A DNA stretch of 64,000 nucleotides. Source: Pseudomonadota bacterium. Lineage in GTDB: Bacteria; Pseudomonadota; Gammaproteobacteria; Steroidobacterales; Steroidobacteraceae. Of the stretch, positions 41,649-54,406 are shown piece by piece (position 1 is the stretch's first letter; every line of letters begins with the position of its first letter). Location of the stretch: the NCBI GenBank assembly GCA_947449495.1, contig CANFSB010000001.1, forward strand, positions 1-64,000, read 5' to 3'. Position numbers and translations under genes: made by a program. The notes beneath the pieces were generated by a model. It worked only from the letters and a program-made list of their open reading frames with translations, was not told the DNA's origin and did not search any database.

Positions 41649-44051
41649 TTACTGGCAGTTGGTCTGCAGGGGCCCGTGCGCCTGCGGAATGTTGTAGAGC
41701 TTGTTGAGGATCATGTCGGAGGTCACCGGCGTGCGGTTGAAGACATGTCCACCCATCGCATTGGAGATGGCACACAACAAGGCTGAAGCAGCCGAGCCGA
41801 GCAGCGGCTCGCCAATGCCCTTAGTGCCCATTGGGCTGGTCGGGTCCGGAAGATCCACCGCGCACGTGCGCATGTTCAGCGGGATATCGCCATAAGTCGG
41901 TGGTCTGGCCTGATAAAAGCCGATGCTGTGCGGCAGGCCGTTTTGCGGGTCATAGATGATGCGTTCAAGACCGGCGACGCCAAAGCCCTGGATACCACCA
42001 CTCTTGATTTGCGTTTGCAGACCTGACGGATGAATGACAGTGCCGCAATCAGCCACACCAACAAAATCCAGGATAGTGTATTTACCCGTCTCGTAATCGA
42101 GTTCAACCATCACAAAGGCCGCGGCAAATGCAGCCGTCTCGCCACCGACCTTGAGCTTGTCCTTAGCCACACCAATAAGGCCGCTGCCAGCCAGCGCCGT
42201 AGCCGAGTCGCGGGTCATCGGGTTGATGTCTTCGGGCAACTGGTGGCCGTCGAACTTGCCACCCAACTGGATGGCACGCTGAGCCGCCTGGCCGTAGGTC
42301 ATGCCAGTGCCGGGACTGCCGCGACGAAACACGCGCTTGCCATCGACGTCGTAGTCTTCGGGCTTGCCACCGAACTGCTGCGCAGCAATTTCTTTGAGTT
42401 TGTTGAGAGCATCGGTGGCGGCAACAAAATTGGTGCGCGCCATCGTGAACGAAGTGTTGCTGCCGAACTGGCCAATATTCCAAGGCAAGTGTTTGCGACT
42501 ATCGCCCCGCACCACCACACAGTCTGCCCAATCAATTTTGAGTACTTCTGCGGCAATGCGCGACGTGCCTGAGTGCGAGAACGTGCCCAGATTGCCTACA
42601 CCCGTATGGATGTGCAGCTTGCCGTCTGTTGCGATGCGCACCAAACCATCAAAGCCATTGAAGCCCGCTGGGTGATAGGCCTGCCCCACGCCGACGCCAT
42701 AGCCCTTGGAGCCTTTGCGCTGACCACACATGGCCAGCTTGTTCTCCCAATCGAACTCTTTGGCACCACAGCGGATAGCCTCTTTGAGGTAGCAGCTGGT
42801 GGTCGGCGTGCGCTTAACGCCGCCCGGTGAACCTGTTTCCGGATCGTTGAGGAGCCGGATTGCCACACGATCGATGCCCAACTCATGGGCCGCGCGATCA
42901 ATCAGCGGCTCGATGATGTGCACCAGCTGGTTGTAGCCCGGGCCACGCTGCGCACTACGAATCGGCGAGTTGGCGTGCACTGGTACGCCACGCCAGCGCA
43001 TGGCCTCGGGCTGGTACACCATCGACAGCGCATCGCCCGCATTACGGAAATCCCAGAAGCTGTTGTAGGCGCCATTTTCTTGCACCACATACAGGTCGGC
43101 CGCAAGCAGCTTGCCGTTCTCTGCAAAACCCAGCTTTACCCGTCCCTGAAAGCCATGACGCGCAGAGCCGTTGTAGTACTCCTCTGCACGGCTAATGCGC
43201 AGCAGCACCGGACGGTTGATCTTCTTGGACATCAGCGCCGGCAGGGCCTGGATGGGATAGGCATTGCCCTTGGAACCAAAGCCGCCGCCGCAATATTCGG
43301 CAATCACCACTAAGTCTGAAGGTGGGATGCCGATCATCTGCGCCAGTGGCGGCACGATGAACGATTGGCTTTGCGACGACACATAAACAATGCACTTGCC
43401 GTTCTGCCAATGAGCCAGGGCCGAACGCGGCTCCATGCTGTGATGCGAGTTGCTGCCATGCACAAAGGTGTCGTCATAGACCACCTTGCACTTGGCAAAG
43501 GTGGCGTCCAAATCACCGTAAGTCCATTCCTGAGCCGGTTCACCCATCGGCATGCGACCGGGCTCTGCGTTGGCAAAATCCTCGGCCTTCCACTTGAGCG
43601 ACTGAAACTTCACCCCGGCAGCACCGACGTTGCCATCGGTGCGCGCATCCACAGCCCCTGGACGCAGGCTCTGCAGCGCATCCACGTGAAAGGGCAGGAT
43701 CTCCCAATCGATGCGGATTTTTTCAATCGCATCCTGCGCAGTTGTTTCGTCCTCGGCGGCCAGCATCAACACCGCAGCGCCGACATAACCGGGCTCGTTG
43801 GTGAGTAACGGAATCTCCGGTGCGGGCGGGTTCTTGACTTCATCGGCCGTGAGGATGCCCAGCACCCCGGGCATCTTGAGTGCCTCACTGGCATCGATGT
43901 GGCGCACCCGCGCATGCGGATAAGGGCTGTTGAGAAACCGCGCGTAGACCATGCCCTCGACGCGGAAGTCCTCGACGTACTTGGCCTCACCGGTGACCTT
44001 GGCCACCACGTCCGGCGGCAGGAAGTCTTTGCCCAGGTGCTTATACGCCAT
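41649..44051 (-). CDS. Molybdenum hydroxylase large (molybdopterin-binding) subunit
   Basis: DVVAKVTGEAKYVEDFRVEGMVYARFLNSPYPHARV, HSMEPRSALAHW, EYCGGGFGSKGNAYP, GTFSHSGTSRIAAEVL, GTKGIGEPLLGSAASALLCAISNA. Confidence 0.93.
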   Translation of the reverse strand: MAYKHLGKDFLPPDVVAKVTGEAKYVEDFRVEGMVYARFLNSPYPHARVRHIDASEALKMPGVLGILTADEVKNPPAPEIPLLTNEPGYVGAAVLMLAAEDETTAQDAIEKIRIDWEILPFHVDALQSLRPGAVDARTDGNVGAAGVKFQSLKWKAEDFANAEPGRMPMGEPAQEWTYGDLDATFAKCKVVYDDTFVHGSNSHHSMEPRSALAHWQNGKCIVYVSSQSQSFIVPPLAQMIGIPPSDLVVIAEYCGGGFGSKGNAYPIQALPALMSKKINRPVLLRISRAEEYYNGSARHGFQGRVKLGFAENGKLLAADLYVVQENGAYNSFWDFRNAGDALSMVYQPEAMRWRGVPVHANSPIRSAQRGPGYNQLVHIIEPLIDRAAHELGIDRVAIRLLNDPETGSPGGVKRTPTTSCYLKEAIRCGAKEFDWENKLAMCGQRKGSKGYGVGVGQAYHPAGFNGFDGLVRIATDGKLHIHTGVGNLGTFSHSGTSRIAAEVLKIDWADCVVVRGDSRKHLPWNIGQFGSNTSFTMARTNFVAATDALNKLKEIAAQQFGGKPEDYDVDGKRVFRRGSPGTGMTYGQAAQRAIQLGGKFDGHQLPEDINPMTRDSATALAGSGLIGVAKDKLKVGGETAAFAAAFVMVELDYETGKYTILDFVGVADCGTVIHPSGLQTQIKSGGIQGFGVAGLERIIYDPQNGLPHSIGFYQARPPTYGDIPLNMRTCAVDLPDPTSPMGTKGIGEPLLGSAASALLCAISNAMGGHVFNRTPVTSDMILNKLYNIPQAHGPLQTNCQ

Positions 44052-44736
44052 GATGCATCTCCACGTGCTGGTGGCTGATCTGGTCGTGGTTGCCGCAGGC
44101 CCGCATGATGCCGTTGAGATAGTTGTCGTAGGCAGCACAGCGGCACAGGTTGCCGGACATTGCGTGACGGGCCTCCTCGCGGCTGGGCTTGGGGTTCTTC
44201 TTGAGCAGTGCGACCGCGGCCACCACCTGCCCCGGCGTGCAGAACCCACATTGCGGTGAAAGCTCTTCGACGAACGCTTGCTGCACCGGGTGCAACTCGC
44301 CATTGGGGCCACGCAGCCCCTCAATGGTGACCACCTTGCGCCCACGCACACTGTGAGTCAGCGTTGAGCACCCATAGTGCGTGACGTCGTTGATCATGAC
44401 GGTGCAGGCACCGCACTCGGCGCGATCGCAAGCAACCTTGGTACCGGTCAGGCCCAGCTTGTAGCGCAGTGTGGTGGCCAGCGTCTCTTGCGGCAGCACA
44501 TCGACGCGGCGCAACTGGCCGTTCACATCGATGGATAGCAACCGCTCGACAGCACCGGCTGCGGTCGCACGACGCGGACTGCAGCCCGCCAAGCCCGCAC
44601 CCATGAAACTGGCTGACGAAGCCACAGCGCCAGAGGCGATGACGCGTTTGATGAACTCACGGCGCGACTGGCGCCGCGCGTCGGACTCTACTGCCAGTGT
44701 GGCCGTGACCACACTGATGCCCTTTAGATCAGCCAT
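44041..44736 (-). CDS. Molybdenum hydroxylase [2Fe-2S] subunit with Tat signal and lipobox
   Basis: SRREFIKRVIASGAVASSASFMGAGLAGC; ACDRAECGACTVMINDVTHYGCSTL; CGFCTPGQVVAAVALL; GNLCRCAAYDNYLNGI. Confidence 0.93.
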   Translation of the reverse strand: MADLKGISVVTATLAVESDARRQSRREFIKRVIASGAVASSASFMGAGLAGCSPRRATAAGAVERLLSIDVNGQLRRVDVLPQETLATTLRYKLGLTGTKVACDRAECGACTVMINDVTHYGCSTLTHSVRGRKVVTIEGLRGPNGELHPVQQAFVEELSPQCGFCTPGQVVAAVALLKKNPKPSREEARHAMSGNLCRCAAYDNYLNGIMRACGNHDQISHQHVEMHHGV

Positions 44737-47411: not shown

Positions 47412-48701
47412 ATGGCACGCATCATCGGCGCAATCGCGACCTCTCACACCCCCACCATCGGCTTTGCCTATGACGGCAAAAAGCAGAACGACCCCGTGTG
47501 GAAGCCCATCTTTGATGCCTACGAGCCCATCAAGGCTTGGCTGGCAGAAAAGAAGCCCGATGTGCTGTTCATGATCTACAACGATCACGTCACTTCATTC
47601 TTCTTTGACCATTACTCGGCCTTTGCCCTGGGCGTGGGCGAGGAATACTCGGTCGCCGACGAAGGCGGCGGTTCCCGTCAGCTGCCTCCCATCAAGGCGC
47701 ATGGCAAGCTGGCACGCCACATCGGCGAGTCGCTGGTCGCCGACGAGTTCGACATGTCGTTCTTCCAGTCCAAGCCGCTGGACCACGGCTGCTTCTCACC
47801 GATGTGCATCCTCATGGAGCACGAACCCGACTGGACCACGCCGATCATCCCGTTCCAGATGGGTGTGTTGCAGTTCCCTGTGCCCAGCGCGGCGCGTTGC
47901 TACAAGCTGGGCCAATCCCTGCGCGATGCGATCGAAAGCTATCCAGAAGACCTCAAGGTTTGCATCGTGGCCACCGGCGGCCTGTCGCACCAGGTGCACG
48001 GCGAGCGCTGCGGATTCAACAATCCGGCCTGGGACCAGAAGTTCATGGAACTACTCGAGCATGATCCCATCGCTCTGACGCGCATGACGCATGCCGATCA
48101 CGCCACGCTAGGCGGCGCCGAAAGTGCCGAAATCGTCATGTGGTTGATGATGCGCGGCGCGCTGTCTGCCACGGCCAAGGTCGTGCACAAGAGCTATTAC
48201 CTGCCGTCCATGACGGCCATCGCCACCATGATCTTTGAACACAACGCAGAGCCCATGAGCGACAAGGTGGCCGATGCGCATCGTGCTCATATCGGTCATC
48301 AGATCGATGGCATTGAGAAGCTGCCGGGCACCTACCCGTTCACGCTGGAGCGCAGCGTCGGTCACTACAAGCTCAACAAGTTCCTGCGTGACTTGGTCAT
48401 CCCAGAACATCGCGCACTGTTCAAGAGTGACCCGGAGCGCGCCTTTACCGAGGGCGAGCTAACCGAGCACGAAAAAGACATGATCCGGCGCTTGGATTGG
48501 CTCGCACTGATGCAGTACGGCGCCATCTTCTTTGTGCTTGAGAAGCTCGCCGCGGTCAGCGGTGTGTCCAACCCGCAGATCTACGCGGCGATGCGCGGCA
48601 TGACGCTGGATGAGTTCCAGAAGACCCGCAATGCAGCGGTCACCTATGGCACCGGCGGCAAAGAAACCCACGACAAGGTCGAGGCCAGCGGCAAGAAGTA
48701 A
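47412..48701 (+). CDS. Fused LigB-LigA-type extradiol dioxygenase (gallate/protocatechuate 4,5-dioxygenase-like)
   Basis: N-terminal LigB-like ATSHTPTIGFAYD, YNDHVTSFFFDHYSAFALGVGEEY, GGLSHQVHGERCGFNNPAWD; C-terminal LigA-like YKLNKFLRDLVIPEHRALFKSDPERAFTEGELTEHEKDMIRRLDWLALMQYGAIFFVLEKL. Confidence 0.9.
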   Translation: MARIIGAIATSHTPTIGFAYDGKKQNDPVWKPIFDAYEPIKAWLAEKKPDVLFMIYNDHVTSFFFDHYSAFALGVGEEYSVADEGGGSRQLPPIKAHGKLARHIGESLVADEFDMSFFQSKPLDHGCFSPMCILMEHEPDWTTPIIPFQMGVLQFPVPSAARCYKLGQSLRDAIESYPEDLKVCIVATGGLSHQVHGERCGFNNPAWDQKFMELLEHDPIALTRMTHADHATLGGAESAEIVMWLMMRGALSATAKVVHKSYYLPSMTAIATMIFEHNAEPMSDKVADAHRAHIGHQIDGIEKLPGTYPFTLERSVGHYKLNKFLRDLVIPEHRALFKSDPERAFTEGELTEHEKDMIRRLDWLALMQYGAIFFVLEKLAAVSGVSNPQIYAAMRGMTLDEFQKTRNAAVTYGTGGKETHDKVEASGKK

Positions 48702-48728: not shown

Positions 48729-49145
48729 TTAGTAAGCCGGCGCGTCCTTGGCACCCTGTGCCGGCAGCACACCGGCACCATTGCCCAGCTTGCGACCATC
48801 CGGGAATGCCGCGCTGACAAATGAGCCACCTGGGTCACCGTTGCGCAGCGGACGGATGGTGATGGTCACTTTTTCACCCGGCTTGAACGAATTGCGCTTC
48901 CAACCCTGACGACCGACCAGATTGGGGCTACCGCCCTCGATCGACCACTCCTGCTCAACACCCTTGGCATTGGGCACCATCACCTGAATCCAGATGTGCG
49001 GATTGCTCCACTGGAATTCTTTGACGGTAGCTTCGAGCACCACACTCTTGGACGGGTCAAACATATTGGCCGAATGATGCGCTGCTGCAGGCAGGGCAAC
49101 GATGGCTGCAGCCAGCAGGGACATCTTTAATGCAATGGATTTCAT
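48729..49145 (-). CDS. DUF6152-like secreted protein (copy 1)
   Basis: Signal peptide MKSIALKMSLLAAAIVALPAAA|HHSANMFDPSKSVVLEATVKEFQWSNPHIWIQVMVP. Confidence 0.85.
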   Translation of the reverse strand: MKSIALKMSLLAAAIVALPAAAHHSANMFDPSKSVVLEATVKEFQWSNPHIWIQVMVPNAKGVEQEWSIEGGSPNLVGRQGWKRNSFKPGEKVTITIRPLRNGDPGGSFVSAAFPDGRKLGNGAGVLPAQGAKDAPAY

Positions 49146-49164
49146 GGCGGGTTCCTCGTCAGTT

Positions 49165-49899
49165 TCAAGGTTTGCCGGTCTGGCCGGGCAGGATGATCTC
49201 GCGGTTATTTTCCTCGCAGACATATTCCATGATCTGCAAGTCGGGTCCGCCGCGCTTGAAGCGCCGCGTGACTACCCACGGCTTGGTAAACGCCACCGGA
49301 TCGGTCACCGTCATGACCTCCTCCAGCGTATTGGCGTCAATCTGCCGTATACGCTCTGAGACTTTGATCTGATCGCTGTGCTCTAGCGGCGTTGCATCAA
49401 AGCTCGTGTCTCCGCGCAGGCCATTGGTCTCGACCACAAGCGTCTGTCCTTCCCAATGTCCCACCGAATAACCGTTGAAGGTGATCTCGACTTCATCATC
49501 AGGCGGCGCCTTGCGACCATCGGTAAAGATGCGCCGCACTTGGCTGGACCACTCGGCAATGATGGTGACCTGCTTGGCCGTCTGCAGAATCTCCAGCGGA
49601 TAACTGGCCACCATAAAACGTGGCATGCCCTGTGGCAGGCAACGCGAAGTGGGATCAGCAACGACTTCACCGCGGGCACGAGCCGCCATGGCCTGTTGAT
49701 AGCGCGCTGCATAAGCAGGCGTGAACGGCGGCAACTCGTTAGTGGGATTGAAGCGGATGCCTTGAGCACGCTCCCACACCCCAGTCCAATTGGGTGTGAC
49801 GGCGCCATTGGGCAATTTTGTGCCCGGAACTTGGGCCAGCCCGGGGCCTGCAAACAGCGCCAAGCCCAGCAGCACAATTGATCGCTCCAGCTTCTGCAT
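49165..49899 (-). CDS. Secreted hypothetical protein, 'YS.GHWEG.TLVVET' family (copy 1)
   Basis: Signal peptide MQKLERSIVLLGLALFAGPGLAQ; YPLEILQTAKQVTIIAEWSSQVRRIFTDGR; YSVGHWEGQTLVVETNGL. Confidence 0.8.
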   Translation of the reverse strand: MQKLERSIVLLGLALFAGPGLAQVPGTKLPNGAVTPNWTGVWERAQGIRFNPTNELPPFTPAYAARYQQAMAARARGEVVADPTSRCLPQGMPRFMVASYPLEILQTAKQVTIIAEWSSQVRRIFTDGRKAPPDDEVEITFNGYSVGHWEGQTLVVETNGLRGDTSFDATPLEHSDQIKVSERIRQIDANTLEEVMTVTDPVAFTKPWVVTRRFKRGGPDLQIMEYVCEENNREIILPGQTGKP

Positions 49900-50085
49900 C
49901 GTCTTGTCCTCGCAAAGTGTGGTGCATCCTCACCCGAAGTGGCTGCAACGGCAAGCCGCCTGCTTTACAGAAGCCGCTTGGCAGGACTAGTCTGCGACAG
50001 CGCCGCGCTGAGTTTTTCAGTGGTCCGGAGCATTTTCAACACATACTGGCTCCCATCGAGGAGCCTTGAATCGGGGGATCGATCG

Positions 50086-53000
50086 ATGAAAATTCAACGG
50101 AATACCCATGCCCGTCGCAAGACGATTTCAGTTCATGCCAGCGTACTGGCCATTCTGGCCGGCTGCAGCATGGCGGGCACCGCCCTGGCGCAAGACAGTG
50201 AACTGACCGAAGTGATGGTGACCGGCTCGCGCATCGCCGCCACCGGCTTCAGCACGCCGACCCCCGTGACACAGCTCAACGCCGAAACACTGGAAAGACT
50301 CAACGTCACCAACCTCGGTGCCGCGATCAGCCAGCTGCCAGCCTTTAAGGCCACCAACACCCCCACCAACAACGGCTGGGGCAGCTTCAATGTCGGCGCG
50401 CAGATCGTGAACCTGCGCGGCCTGGGCGTGAACCGCAACCTGGTGCTGGTCGATGGCCGCCGCTTTGCGCCGGTCACGCGTGAAGGCACTGTCGACCTCA
50501 ACCTGATCCCCAGCGGCTTGGTTGAGCGCACCGACGTAGTCACCGGCGGCGCCTCGGCCGCCTATGGCTCCGACGCCGTCGCCGGCGCGGTCAACATCGT
50601 GCTCAACAAGAAGCTGCAGGGCCTCAAGGGCCAGGCTGACATCGGCCAGTCGCAATGGAACGACGGCACCAATTACCACGTGGCCTTGGCCGGTGGTGAC
50701 GACTTTGCGGCCGGTCGCGGCCACTTCATCGTCGGCGGCGAATACGACCGTCAGGACGGCATCGGCGATTGCTTTACACGCTCCTGGTGCGTGGGCGGTC
50801 AGGTCGTCACAAACGGCGCGGCCGGCGCCGCTGGCATTGCGGGTCAGCCTTATCTGTTGCGCAGCGATGAGGGCGGCGGCTTCCAAGCCAACCAATACGG
50901 CGTTATCAACTTCGTCAACAACGGCACAGCCGCAACGGCCGCGATCCGCGGCATGTTCGGCAATACCGGCACGACCGGTGGCGTTACCTTCAACGCCGCG
51001 GGCCAGCCGATCGCCTATACCTTGGGCAAGCCCGCTCAGGGCACCAACGCCATCGGCGGCGATGTGGTCTCGGGCATGACCACCACGCAGCTGATGGTGC
51101 CGGTCGAGCGCTACACCAGCTACGGCCATGCCGATTACAACTTCAGCGACACGCTGCACGGCTTCATCGAGGGCTCTTACGGCCATGTGGCCGGCTCGAC
51201 GCTGCAGTCGCGCTACTTCGGTACTGCTCTGCCCATCTTTACTGACAACCCGTTCATCCCCGACGCGATCCGCGCGCTGATCCCCGGCGCACCTGCCGCC
51301 ACGACAGCACCCGGTGTTGTGCGTCCCGGCACGACCGCAACCACCGGCACCTATGGCACCGGTGCCTTCAACCTGGCAGTGCTGGGTCAGCGCCGCGGCG
51401 AATCCGCTTCTTCTGCAGAGACCAAGCGCATCACCTTTGGTCTGGACGGCAAGCTGGCCGGCAGCTGGAAGTGGGACACCTACTACCAGTACGCAGAGAC
51501 CGGTCGGCATCAAGAGGTGGCCAACAATCTGGCCACCGGTGCCACTCGCGTCATCAACAAGCCCGGCAGCGGCGGCGCCAACAATGCCGGCTCGCTGGCC
51601 TATTGGTACTGGGCAACAGACGCCGTATACAACCCGGCCGATGCAGCCCTGCCGGCTGCACAGCGTCGCATCGTCTGCCGCGCCAGCATCAGCACCAATG
51701 CAGCGCTGGCCGCTGCAGCTGCAGGCTGCGTGCCCTTCAATCCCTTTGGTGGTCAGGCCTCCAAGGCAGCGCTCGATTACGTGTACCGGACGCTGACCGA
51801 AGAGATCAAGATCAGCCAGCATGTGGCCGCAGCCAACGTGCAGGGCGATGTGCTGGACCTTTGGGCCGGCCCGCTGGCCGTTGCTGCTGGTGCGGAGTAC
51901 CGCCGCGATTCCACGGCGCTGGTGCACGACACGCTGTCTAATTCGTTCGTGTATTTCCAGAACTTCGGCGCCGACTACAACGCCAAGCAGGACGTGGTCG
52001 AGGCCTATGCCGAAGCCAACCTGCCGCTGCTCAAGAATCAGCCGCTGGCACAGGATGCCTCGATCAACGCTGCCATCCGTCAGACGCAGTACAAGTTCGA
52101 CGGCTTCGGTGGCTTCAATCAGGCAGCAGCTTCGAACAAGTTCGATGCCACCGCCTGGAAGGTGGGTCTGTTGTGGGATCTGACCGACTGGGCCCGCGTA
52201 CGCGTGACCCGCTCGCAGGATATCCGTGCCCCCAACTTCAACGAGTTGTTCCAGGCCAGCGCCAGCAACTTCACGTCCTATGCCAATCCTTGGGCCAGCA
52301 ATGCTTCGCAGTTCCCGGCAGGCTTGGCAGGCGGCAACCCTTCGTTGAATCCGGAAACGGCACACACCACCACCATCGGTCTGGTGCTGCAGCCCACTTG
52401 GGACAAGGTTGGCCGCGTGCGCTTCTCGGCCGACTACTACGACATCAAGGTGGACGGCTACATCGGCGCGCCCGGTGGCCAGAACATCATCGACCGTTGC
52501 TACAAGTTCAACGAAACGAACTTCTGCGATCTGATCGGTTTTGCTACGGATGCCGCCGGCAACACCAAGGGCACACTCACCGAGATCCGCAACGCCAACG
52601 TCAACCTGCAGTGGTTGCGCACGCGCGGCATGGACTTTGAGGGTGATTACCGACTGCCACTCAACACTGTGTCTGACAGCCTCGCCGGCGACTTGAGCCT
52701 GCGACTGCTGGCCACCAAGACACTTGAAAGTTCGACCAACCTGTTCGGCGTGGTTACTAATCAGGTGGGTGCAACCGGTTCGGCCGGTGGTATCAGCCAG
52801 TGGCTGTTCAATGCCTTTGCCACTTACAGCACCGGTCCGATGTCGGCCACGCTGTCGATGCGCTACATCCCTGAAGGTCTGCTCAGCGTCACCAACATCG
52901 GGCCCGACAGCCCGCTGTACTCGACCATCGACGTGACCAAGCAGCAGACCATCGACGGTGTCGTGTATTCGCCGATCAACGACAACATCGTCAAGAGCGC

Positions 53001-53193
53001 CACCTACTTCAACTTCAACGGCAGCTACAACCTGCGTCAGGAAGGCTCCACGAAGTTGCAGGTGTTCCTGTCGGTCAACAACCTGTTCGGCAAGACCCCG
53101 CCGGCAGCGCCCAGCACCACCTACCCCACCAATCCGGTCTACTTCGACCAGATTGGCCGCTACGGTCGCATCGGCGTTCGCTTCAGCTACTAA
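50086..53193 (+). CDS. TonB-dependent receptor
   Basis: Signal peptide; plug EVMVTGSRIAATGFSTPTPVTQL, NLRGLGVNRNLVLVDGRRFAPVT, TGGASAAYGSDAVAGAVNIVLNK; C-terminal beta-strand YGRIGVRFSY. Confidence 0.96.
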   Translation: MKIQRNTHARRKTISVHASVLAILAGCSMAGTALAQDSELTEVMVTGSRIAATGFSTPTPVTQLNAETLERLNVTNLGAAISQLPAFKATNTPTNNGWGSFNVGAQIVNLRGLGVNRNLVLVDGRRFAPVTREGTVDLNLIPSGLVERTDVVTGGASAAYGSDAVAGAVNIVLNKKLQGLKGQADIGQSQWNDGTNYHVALAGGDDFAAGRGHFIVGGEYDRQDGIGDCFTRSWCVGGQVVTNGAAGAAGIAGQPYLLRSDEGGGFQANQYGVINFVNNGTAATAAIRGMFGNTGTTGGVTFNAAGQPIAYTLGKPAQGTNAIGGDVVSGMTTTQLMVPVERYTSYGHADYNFSDTLHGFIEGSYGHVAGSTLQSRYFGTALPIFTDNPFIPDAIRALIPGAPAATTAPGVVRPGTTATTGTYGTGAFNLAVLGQRRGESASSAETKRITFGLDGKLAGSWKWDTYYQYAETGRHQEVANNLATGATRVINKPGSGGANNAGSLAYWYWATDAVYNPADAALPAAQRRIVCRASISTNAALAAAAAGCVPFNPFGGQASKAALDYVYRTLTEEIKISQHVAAANVQGDVLDLWAGPLAVAAGAEYRRDSTALVHDTLSNSFVYFQNFGADYNAKQDVVEAYAEANLPLLKNQPLAQDASINAAIRQTQYKFDGFGGFNQAAASNKFDATAWKVGLLWDLTDWARVRVTRSQDIRAPNFNELFQASASNFTSYANPWASNASQFPAGLAGGNPSLNPETAHTTTIGLVLQPTWDKVGRVRFSADYYDIKVDGYIGAPGGQNIIDRCYKFNETNFCDLIGFATDAAGNTKGTLTEIRNANVNLQWLRTRGMDFEGDYRLPLNTVSDSLAGDLSLRLLATKTLESSTNLFGVVTNQVGATGSAGGISQWLFNAFATYSTGPMSATLSMRYIPEGLLSVTNIGPDSPLYSTIDVTKQQTIDGVVYSPINDNIVKSATYFNFNGSYNLRQEGSTKLQVFLSVNNLFGKTPPAAPSTTYPTNPVYFDQIGRYGRIGVRFSY

Positions 53194-53218
53194 CGCCACT
53201 GCCAGAGGACTTACGAGC

Positions 53219-53956
53219 ATGATGAGAAAACTATCACTCGCAGTCGCTGCCACGCTCCTGACGGGCGTGGCATTGGCCGCAGCACCCAAACACCCGGACT
53301 TCACGGGTGTGTGGACCAATGCTGGCGCGCCGGCCATGGGCGGCACGACTAACACCGCAGCCAATGTGGTGCTGCCAATGTTGCCGGGCCCCAAGGCGCG
53401 CGTGGATGCCTATAACAAGCTGGTACAGCCGCTGGGCGAGACGCCCGGAGGCTGGTGCCTGGGCACGGGTCTGCCGGGCTCCATGCTCGGCTCCGGTGGT
53501 TACCCGATGGAGATTCTGCAGCGCGAAGAGCAGATCAACATCGTGTACGAAGCCCACAACGAAGCTCGTCGCGTTTACTTCGGCGCGCGCAACGCGCCGC
53601 AGGAAGATCGCGTACCGGGTCGCAACGGCTATTCCACGGGGCATTGGGAAGGCGACACGTTGGTCGTCGAGACCGACAACCTGGTCGACCAGATCGACCA
53701 GCGTTTCGCCCATTCGGATGAAGCCAAGGTTGTCGAGCGCTACCACCTAGAGCCCAAGCTCGACGACAAGGGTCGTCGCGTACTGGTGGCAGACATGACA
53801 CTGACCGACCCTAAGTTCTATTCCGCGCCGGTGACGGCACAGAAGCGTTGGGCGCAGGTTCCCAATGGGCGACTGCTGCCCTATGAGTGCGCCGAAGAAG
53901 GCTGGAATGCGCGTCTTGCAGAGATCGCCAAGAAAGCCGGTGTTGCTGTTCCCTGA
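53219..53956 (+). CDS. Secreted hypothetical protein, 'YS.GHWEG.TLVVET' family (copy 2)
   Basis: Signal peptide MMRKLSLAVAATLLTGVALA; YPMEILQREEQINIVYEAHNEARRVYFGAR; YSTGHWEGDTLVVETDNL. Confidence 0.82.
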   Translation: MMRKLSLAVAATLLTGVALAAAPKHPDFTGVWTNAGAPAMGGTTNTAANVVLPMLPGPKARVDAYNKLVQPLGETPGGWCLGTGLPGSMLGSGGYPMEILQREEQINIVYEAHNEARRVYFGARNAPQEDRVPGRNGYSTGHWEGDTLVVETDNLVDQIDQRFAHSDEAKVVERYHLEPKLDDKGRRVLVADMTLTDPKFYSAPVTAQKRWAQVPNGRLLPYECAEEGWNARLAEIAKKAGVAVP

Positions 53957-53989
53957 CGGCCCACAGGGCCATTTTCCGGAGAAATTCAC

Positions 53990-54406
53990 ATGAACAAGTT
54001 CTTCATCCTTGCCAGTGGTGTTGCCTTTGCGGCGCTAGCCACCTCAGCCAGTGCGCATCACTCGGCCGTGCAGTTCGACTTCACCAAACAAGTGCCCATC
54101 AAAGGCACCGTGACGCACTTTCGCGCCATCAACCCGCACATGCAGCTGATACTGCGCGTGAAGGATGCCAAGGGCGAACACCTGGTGGAGTTCGAAGGCC
54201 ACAGCACCAACAACATGTACCGCAATGGTTACCGCAAGGGCATGGTCAACGAGGGCGATGTCATCACTGTCAACGTTGCACCGCTCAAGAACGGTGGCGA
54301 AGGCGGCTATGTGGTGTCGGCCGACTTGGCCGGTGGCACGCACTTCGGCATGGTGTCGCGCTCGCTCGACGCCGCCAAGATCCAGCAGCAGGCCGAAGGC
54401 AAGTAA
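53990..54406 (+). CDS. DUF6152-like secreted protein (copy 2)
   Basis: Signal peptide MNKFFILASGVAFAALATSASA|HHSAVQFDFTKQVPIKGTVTHFRAINPHMQLILRV. Confidence 0.85.
   Translation: MNKFFILASGVAFAALATSASAHHSAVQFDFTKQVPIKGTVTHFRAINPHMQLILRVKDAKGEHLVEFEGHSTNNMYRNGYRKGMVNEGDVITVNVAPLKNGGEGGYVVSADLAGGTHFGMVSRSLDAAKIQQQAEGK

Follow-up and report, generated by a model that had tools for sequence, protein, structure and literature searches.

We found that the unit of the mirror-symmetric gene cluster at 48729-54406 in the window, the whole 64,000-nucleotide stretch of DNA analyzed here, is a pair of genes encoding a DUF6152 protein and a protein of a second family, here called GHWEG, and that the TonB-dependent receptor (TBDR) between its two copies is incidental. 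The two families had been taken for a module in the first-pass annotation, and their tight linkage, natural fusions, and nested distribution bear this out. The explanation that we favor, tentatively and at slightly under an even chance, is a two-part periplasmic capture device, in which a constant, metal-binding OB-fold tip would be combined with a variable calycin cup and specialized by duplication.

Layout of the receptor locus

The five genes lie in mirror order around the TBDR, as first described from the sequence. On the minus strand are D1, a DUF6152 protein of 138 amino acids (aa) (48729..49145), and, separated by 19 bp, G1, a GHWEG-family protein of 244 aa (49165..49899). G1 and the plus-strand receptor (50086..53193) diverge from an intergenic region of ~186 bp (49900..50085), in which a promoter scan found no sigma-70-like promoter above chance. 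Behind the receptor, also on the plus strand, the second GHWEG protein, G2 (53219..53956; 245 aa), follows after 25 bp and the second DUF6152 protein, D2 (53990..54406; 138 aa), after another 33 bp; together with the receptor, these two genes resemble a single operon. The receptor has both a plug domain (PF07715, E 2e-19) and a barrel domain (PF00593, E 1e-28); its open reading frame is open from a GTG at 49939, and its likely start is at ~50086 (MKIQRN...), from which it begins with a signal peptide. Signal peptides are likewise present in D1, G1, G2, and D2, followed in both DUF6152 proteins by the motif HHS.

D1 and D2 score 117 bits (E 3e-34) and 78 bits (E 7e-22) against the DUF6152 model PF19649, with its cut-off of 27 bits, and by score and motifs (HHS and NPH) they are members of this family, as are the N-terminal halves of the fusion proteins described below. 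G1 and G2 matched no Pfam or NCBIfam model. The left and right copies are diverged homologs, as proposed, with 34% identity between G1 and G2 (E 5e-30) and 37% between D1 and D2 (E 5e-25). The LigAB-type dioxygenase noted beside the module is also real: the neighboring plus-strand gene (47412..48701) encodes a class III extradiol gallate dioxygenase with LigB and LigA parts (NF009904, 715 bits, cut-off 412). Farther away in the window, two adjacent minus-strand genes (41649-44736) resemble, judged from their sequence, a two-subunit molybdenum hydroxylase with a 2Fe-2S subunit bearing a Tat-like leader and a large subunit; this pair is conserved at the locus in the genus relative G002.

The locus in relatives and the origin of its mirror order

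In G002, the whole locus is kept at 93-99% identity, gallate dioxygenase included. In G001, the order D2-G2-TBDR-G1-D1 is followed by a second G1-D1 pair, which stands in place of the gallate dioxygenase, and the latter is absent from the contig examined. This conservation in genus relatives indicates that the layout is real and not due to chance. D1 is missing from the locus in G005, and in G006 the dioxygenase and both pairs are present with no receptor between the pairs; the dioxygenase is found at the locus in G002, G005, G006, and G008. The pairs are thus the more stable part of the locus, and the receptor is exchangeable.

In maximum-likelihood trees, neither G1 and G2 nor D1 and D2 come out as sisters: G1 is nearer another paralog that lies beside a TBDR on contig C11, and G2 falls within the clade of the fusion proteins. 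Sisterhood was not rejected by the AU test for either G1/G2 (p 0.147) or D1/D2 (p 0.339). A recent tandem duplication is seen elsewhere in the host genome (L024:4889-7886, contig C35), where a DUF6152 gene stands between two GHWEG genes that closely resemble each other.

Pairing, fusion, and expansion of the two families

By the match lists of the genome searches, on which all genome-wide statistics are based, the host genome (2.58 Mb) holds ~32 GHWEG and ~22 DUF6152 matches, and a GHWEG gene lies within 500 bp of 17 of 21 DUF6152 matches. Seen from the other side, 14 of the 32 GHWEG genes have DUF6152 nearby and 18 have none within 1 kb, which suggests that the cup is able to act without the tip or with a tip encoded elsewhere. 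A 1.6-Mb genome of the same order and another family (G029, with loci such as L040, L041, and L042) goes much further, with 44 GHWEG and 47 DUF6152 matches, 32 of which are single fused proteins. About 60 genes of this small genome thus belong to the family pair, none with a known function, and to our knowledge the set is among the largest paralog expansions for a genome of its size.

The same association is seen across a wider range of bacteria. A sample of 80 contigs found with GHWEG alone (the closer subset of the GHWEG alignment) comes from Gammaproteobacteria, Caulobacterales, Sphingomonadales, including Sphingobium SYK-6, and several groups of Acidobacteria; 58 of the 80 also carry DUF6152, which lies within 500 bp of 84 of the 134 standalone GHWEG genes, on the same strand in 75 cases. 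Among 249 genomes sampled from the phylum, GHWEG occurs in seven, all seven of which have a strong DUF6152 match. Strong DUF6152 without GHWEG was seen in one additional genome, and GHWEG is also absent from the genomes with low-scoring DUF6152 matches. Standalone GHWEG proteins begin with a signal-peptide-like N terminus in 147 of 152 cases, consistent with the secreted module postulated earlier.

Natural fusions, consisting of a signal peptide, the DUF6152 domain, and then the GHWEG domain, are found in several genomes: 13 in the genomes examined first, 15 across the examined loci when two further contigs are included, and 32 in G029. DUF6152 is the N-terminal domain in 47 of 47 fusions (the 32 of G029 plus the 15 from the loci, with a few G029 proteins in both counts), whereas separate genes on the same strand show no bias in order (61 versus 61). 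The fusions are related to one another and are therefore not independent events; their fixed order fits a requirement for a free DUF6152 N terminus. Long GHWEG reading frames checked for further fusion partners were mostly over-extended frames, and one proved to be a protein of 522 aa with two tandem GHWEG domains, from a Candidatus Sulfopaludibacter metagenome-assembled genome (MAG) (L090:1365-2930).

Predicted folds and conserved residues

The GHWEG protein is predicted to form a ligand-binding barrel of the calycin type, similar to fatty-acid-binding proteins (FABP) and avidins. An AlphaFold model of G1 (pLDDT 87, pTM 0.82), compared with the PDB by Foldseek, found calycins as nearly all of its best matches (E from 8e-5, probability about 1, TM-score 0.5-0.63 on target), including retinoic-acid- and retinol-binding proteins (CRABP), FABP, bile-acid-binding proteins, avidins, and NanoLuc. 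Sequence similarity to a known calycin was not found in Pfam, NCBIfam, or a sequence search of the PDB, and we therefore describe GHWEG as having a calycin-like fold and do not file it as a member of the calycins; the PDB search also found no solved structure of a sequence relative for either GHWEG or DUF6152. Among 117 GHWEG sequences, conservation falls largely on structural residues (G40-x-W42, C87, C228, the GHWEG hairpin, and prolines), and most strand positions are highly variable, a pattern that a scaffold with varying pockets would show. A set of polar residues, namely, E116, R122, S145, T158, E182, R183, and D200, is conserved as well and could have a catalytic role.

For DUF6152, an OB fold is predicted. 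In the AlphaFold model of a fusion protein (L029:1828-2871; 348 aa; mean pLDDT 84, pTM 0.79), the DUF6152 half matches OB folds such as PriB and mitochondrial SSB, with TM-scores of 0.67-0.69 on target. In an alignment of 33 sequences, HHS, NPH, and a single Glu do not vary. The residue before the two histidines is Ala in 126 of 143 proteins and V, S, G, or T in the rest, and cleavage of the signal peptide would thus likely expose His-His at the mature N terminus. Natural metal chelation is known from secreted proteins that begin with His, among them DUF4198, which holds nickel by its N-terminal His and one internal His (PMC12537917), and the histidine brace binds copper (PMC10952591). By analogy, the motifs of DUF6152 point to metal binding, although in the fusion model HHS is at the margin of a stretch predicted with low confidence. 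The Pfam entry PF19649 describes no function, DUF6152 does not appear in the main text of PMC12537917, and a literature search found no paper on DUF6152, on DUF6644 (see below), or on a copper-binding OB-fold protein with an N-terminal His; the partnership with GHWEG, the fusions, and the likely His-His N terminus were not found described. The periplasmic binding role put forward at the outset fits both predicted folds.

Genomic neighbors

A dedicated partnership with a TonB receptor, which the first-pass annotation had proposed along with a survey of co-occurrence, does not hold as a rule. In the host genome, 6 of 27 TBDRs are located no more than 3 kb from the module, a modest enrichment over the ~2 expected (p 0.016), and in G029 this is true of 4 of 15 (p 0.20); adjacency is thus a minority trait in both genomes, most pairs have no receptor nearby, and a constant link was rejected. 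TBDRs, identified in distant loci with Pfam, are still the commonest outside family among the neighbors, with 5 of 97 proteins in the host genome and 9 of 104 in the contig sample, where eight further long reading frames beside the module include three TonB receptors and two Oar-like barrels. Carotenoid-oxygenase-like enzymes, pyrroloquinoline quinone (PQQ) dehydrogenases, cytochromes c, esterases, and transporters also recur, a set that points to carbon catabolism but not to one particular pathway.

A low-scoring, single-copy branch of DUF6152 (AHHGW...NPHG) occurs without GHWEG, and a gene for a DUF6644-like membrane protein with four spans lies within 90 bp of it in 11 of 12 loci (L157-L164 and L166-L168). 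These two genes probably form a system of their own that does without GHWEG, and their arrangement is reminiscent of a metal binder encoded beside a membrane transporter. The host genome has five DUF6644-like matches, all on contigs other than those of its pairs. Tandem pairs of two different DUF6644-like genes were observed within a few kb of GHWEG or DUF6152 in a number of loci (L049, L059, L064, L069, L070, L072, L106, L126, L129, L136, L151, L171, and L174), including that of SYK-6. In an Altererythrobacter MAG (L137:1860-5864), a pair lies near genes that look by eye like HupE/UreJ and a His-rich cation-efflux protein, a hint at metals.

A proposed two-part capture device and its alternatives

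In the capture device that we favor, DUF6152 and GHWEG would be the two halves of one secreted, periplasmic assembly. The calycin-type cup of GHWEG would hold a small molecule, probably lipophilic or aromatic, and the mature His-His-Ser end of DUF6152, together with the invariant His of NPH, would hold a transition metal ion. DUF6152 may dock to the cup, as the natural fusions suggest. Duplication would then have multiplied the pairs, with the tip unchanged and the cup adapted each time to another compound, and a pair beside a TonB receptor, as at this locus, would most likely receive or condition the imported substance. The structural and genomic parts of this explanation are well supported; its chemistry, from metal and ligand binding to docking and hand-over from the receptor, is what we infer. 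Counted against it are the conserved polar residues of GHWEG, the 18 of 32 unpaired GHWEG genes of the host genome, the non-independence of the fusions, and the position of HHS in the fusion model.

We consider it unlikely that the pair is a metal-acquisition module in which DUF6152 takes up the metal, GHWEG takes up its organic chelator, and a TonB receptor imports the complex. The N-terminal His-His, the place of TBDRs as the commonest outside neighbors, and the CopC-CopD-like proximity of single-copy DUF6152 to DUF6644 would agree with such a role, and the nickel binder DUF4198 also neighbors TonB receptors (PMC12537917). However, 22 to 47 copies per genome are far above any obvious need for metal, TBDRs, metal pumps, and metal regulators are absent from the surroundings of most pairs, and the recurring neighbors are mostly genes of carbon metabolism.

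Similarly improbable in our judgment is that the two proteins make up one enzyme, with a histidine-brace-type site for copper or another metal in DUF6152 and a GHWEG barrel that presents the substrate for periplasmic oxidation or isomerization, the many paralogs standing for many substrates. The invariant HHS, NPH, and Glu of DUF6152 and the conservation of E116, R122, S145, E182, R183, and D200 in GHWEG are consistent with an active site; fusion into one chain keeps the His end free, periplasmic redox genes (PQQ dehydrogenases and cytochromes c) recur as neighbors, and histidine-brace proteins can be oxygenases (PMC10952591). Neither protein matches a known enzyme family, however, the neighbors are diverse, and DUF4198, the closest in kind among the proteins with an N-terminal His, is a metal binder with weak activity (PMC12537917). 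The bolder form of this idea, that DUF6152-GHWEG is an unrecognized class of secreted metalloenzymes whose His-His OB site acts on molecules held in an exchangeable calycin cup, with tens of substrate-specific copies in environmental bacteria, we regard as quite doubtful.

The model of the first-pass annotation, a system dedicated to the receptor's ligand, which at this locus would probably be gallate or a related aromatic compound, has a poor chance of being right: the adjoining dioxygenase, conserved at the locus in four relatives, the operon-like arrangement of receptor, G2, and D2, and the pair carried by the aromatic degrader SYK-6 speak for it, but the receptor is missing from the locus of G006, which has pairs and dioxygenase, the dioxygenase is missing from the examined contig of G001, which has receptor and pairs, the TBDR link is a minority trait, and the SYK-6 pair lies, by eye, near arginine-catabolism-like and not ring-cleavage genes. 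Since the dioxygenase is replaced in G001 and other pairs adjoin unrelated genes, what is left of the suggested aromatic ligand is a possibility at this locus only.

If the reading of DUF6152-GHWEG as a cup with a metal tip is true, lake and soil bacteria, including many Sphingomonadales and Acidobacteria, carry an undescribed set of periplasmic devices, each specific for a ligand and together about as numerous as the TonB receptors of these bacteria. With so many copies and no assigned function, the pair is of substantial interest, and the natural fusions, being single proteins, are directly usable for metal and ligand tests.

Comparison with known systems

As in SusC/SusD-type TBDR systems, partner genes can adjoin the receptor and expand by duplication, but the DUF6152-GHWEG pair mostly lacks an adjoining receptor, and a Pfam scan shows no relationship of either half to SusD. 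The single-copy DUF6152 gene beside the small multi-span membrane protein DUF6644 is reminiscent of the CopC-CopD operon, although the families are different and the arrangement is regular only in the low-scoring DUF6152 branch. With calycins (FABP/CRABP, avidin, and lipocalin-like barrels), GHWEG shares the predicted antiparallel beta-barrel, the cup shape, and a G-x-W near the start; it differs from them in the GHWEG hairpin, a pair of conserved Cys, and a longer, helix-containing N-terminal part, and the TM-scores are modest. Finally, DUF6152 shares with the N-terminal-histidine metalloproteins (CopC, LPMO, DUF4198, DUF6702, and anglerases) a conserved His that would be exposed by signal cleavage and a conserved internal His, and its metal binding is putative; in contrast to them, it has a predicted OB fold instead of a beta-sandwich, two consecutive histidines, a calycin-like partner domain, and tens of paralogs.
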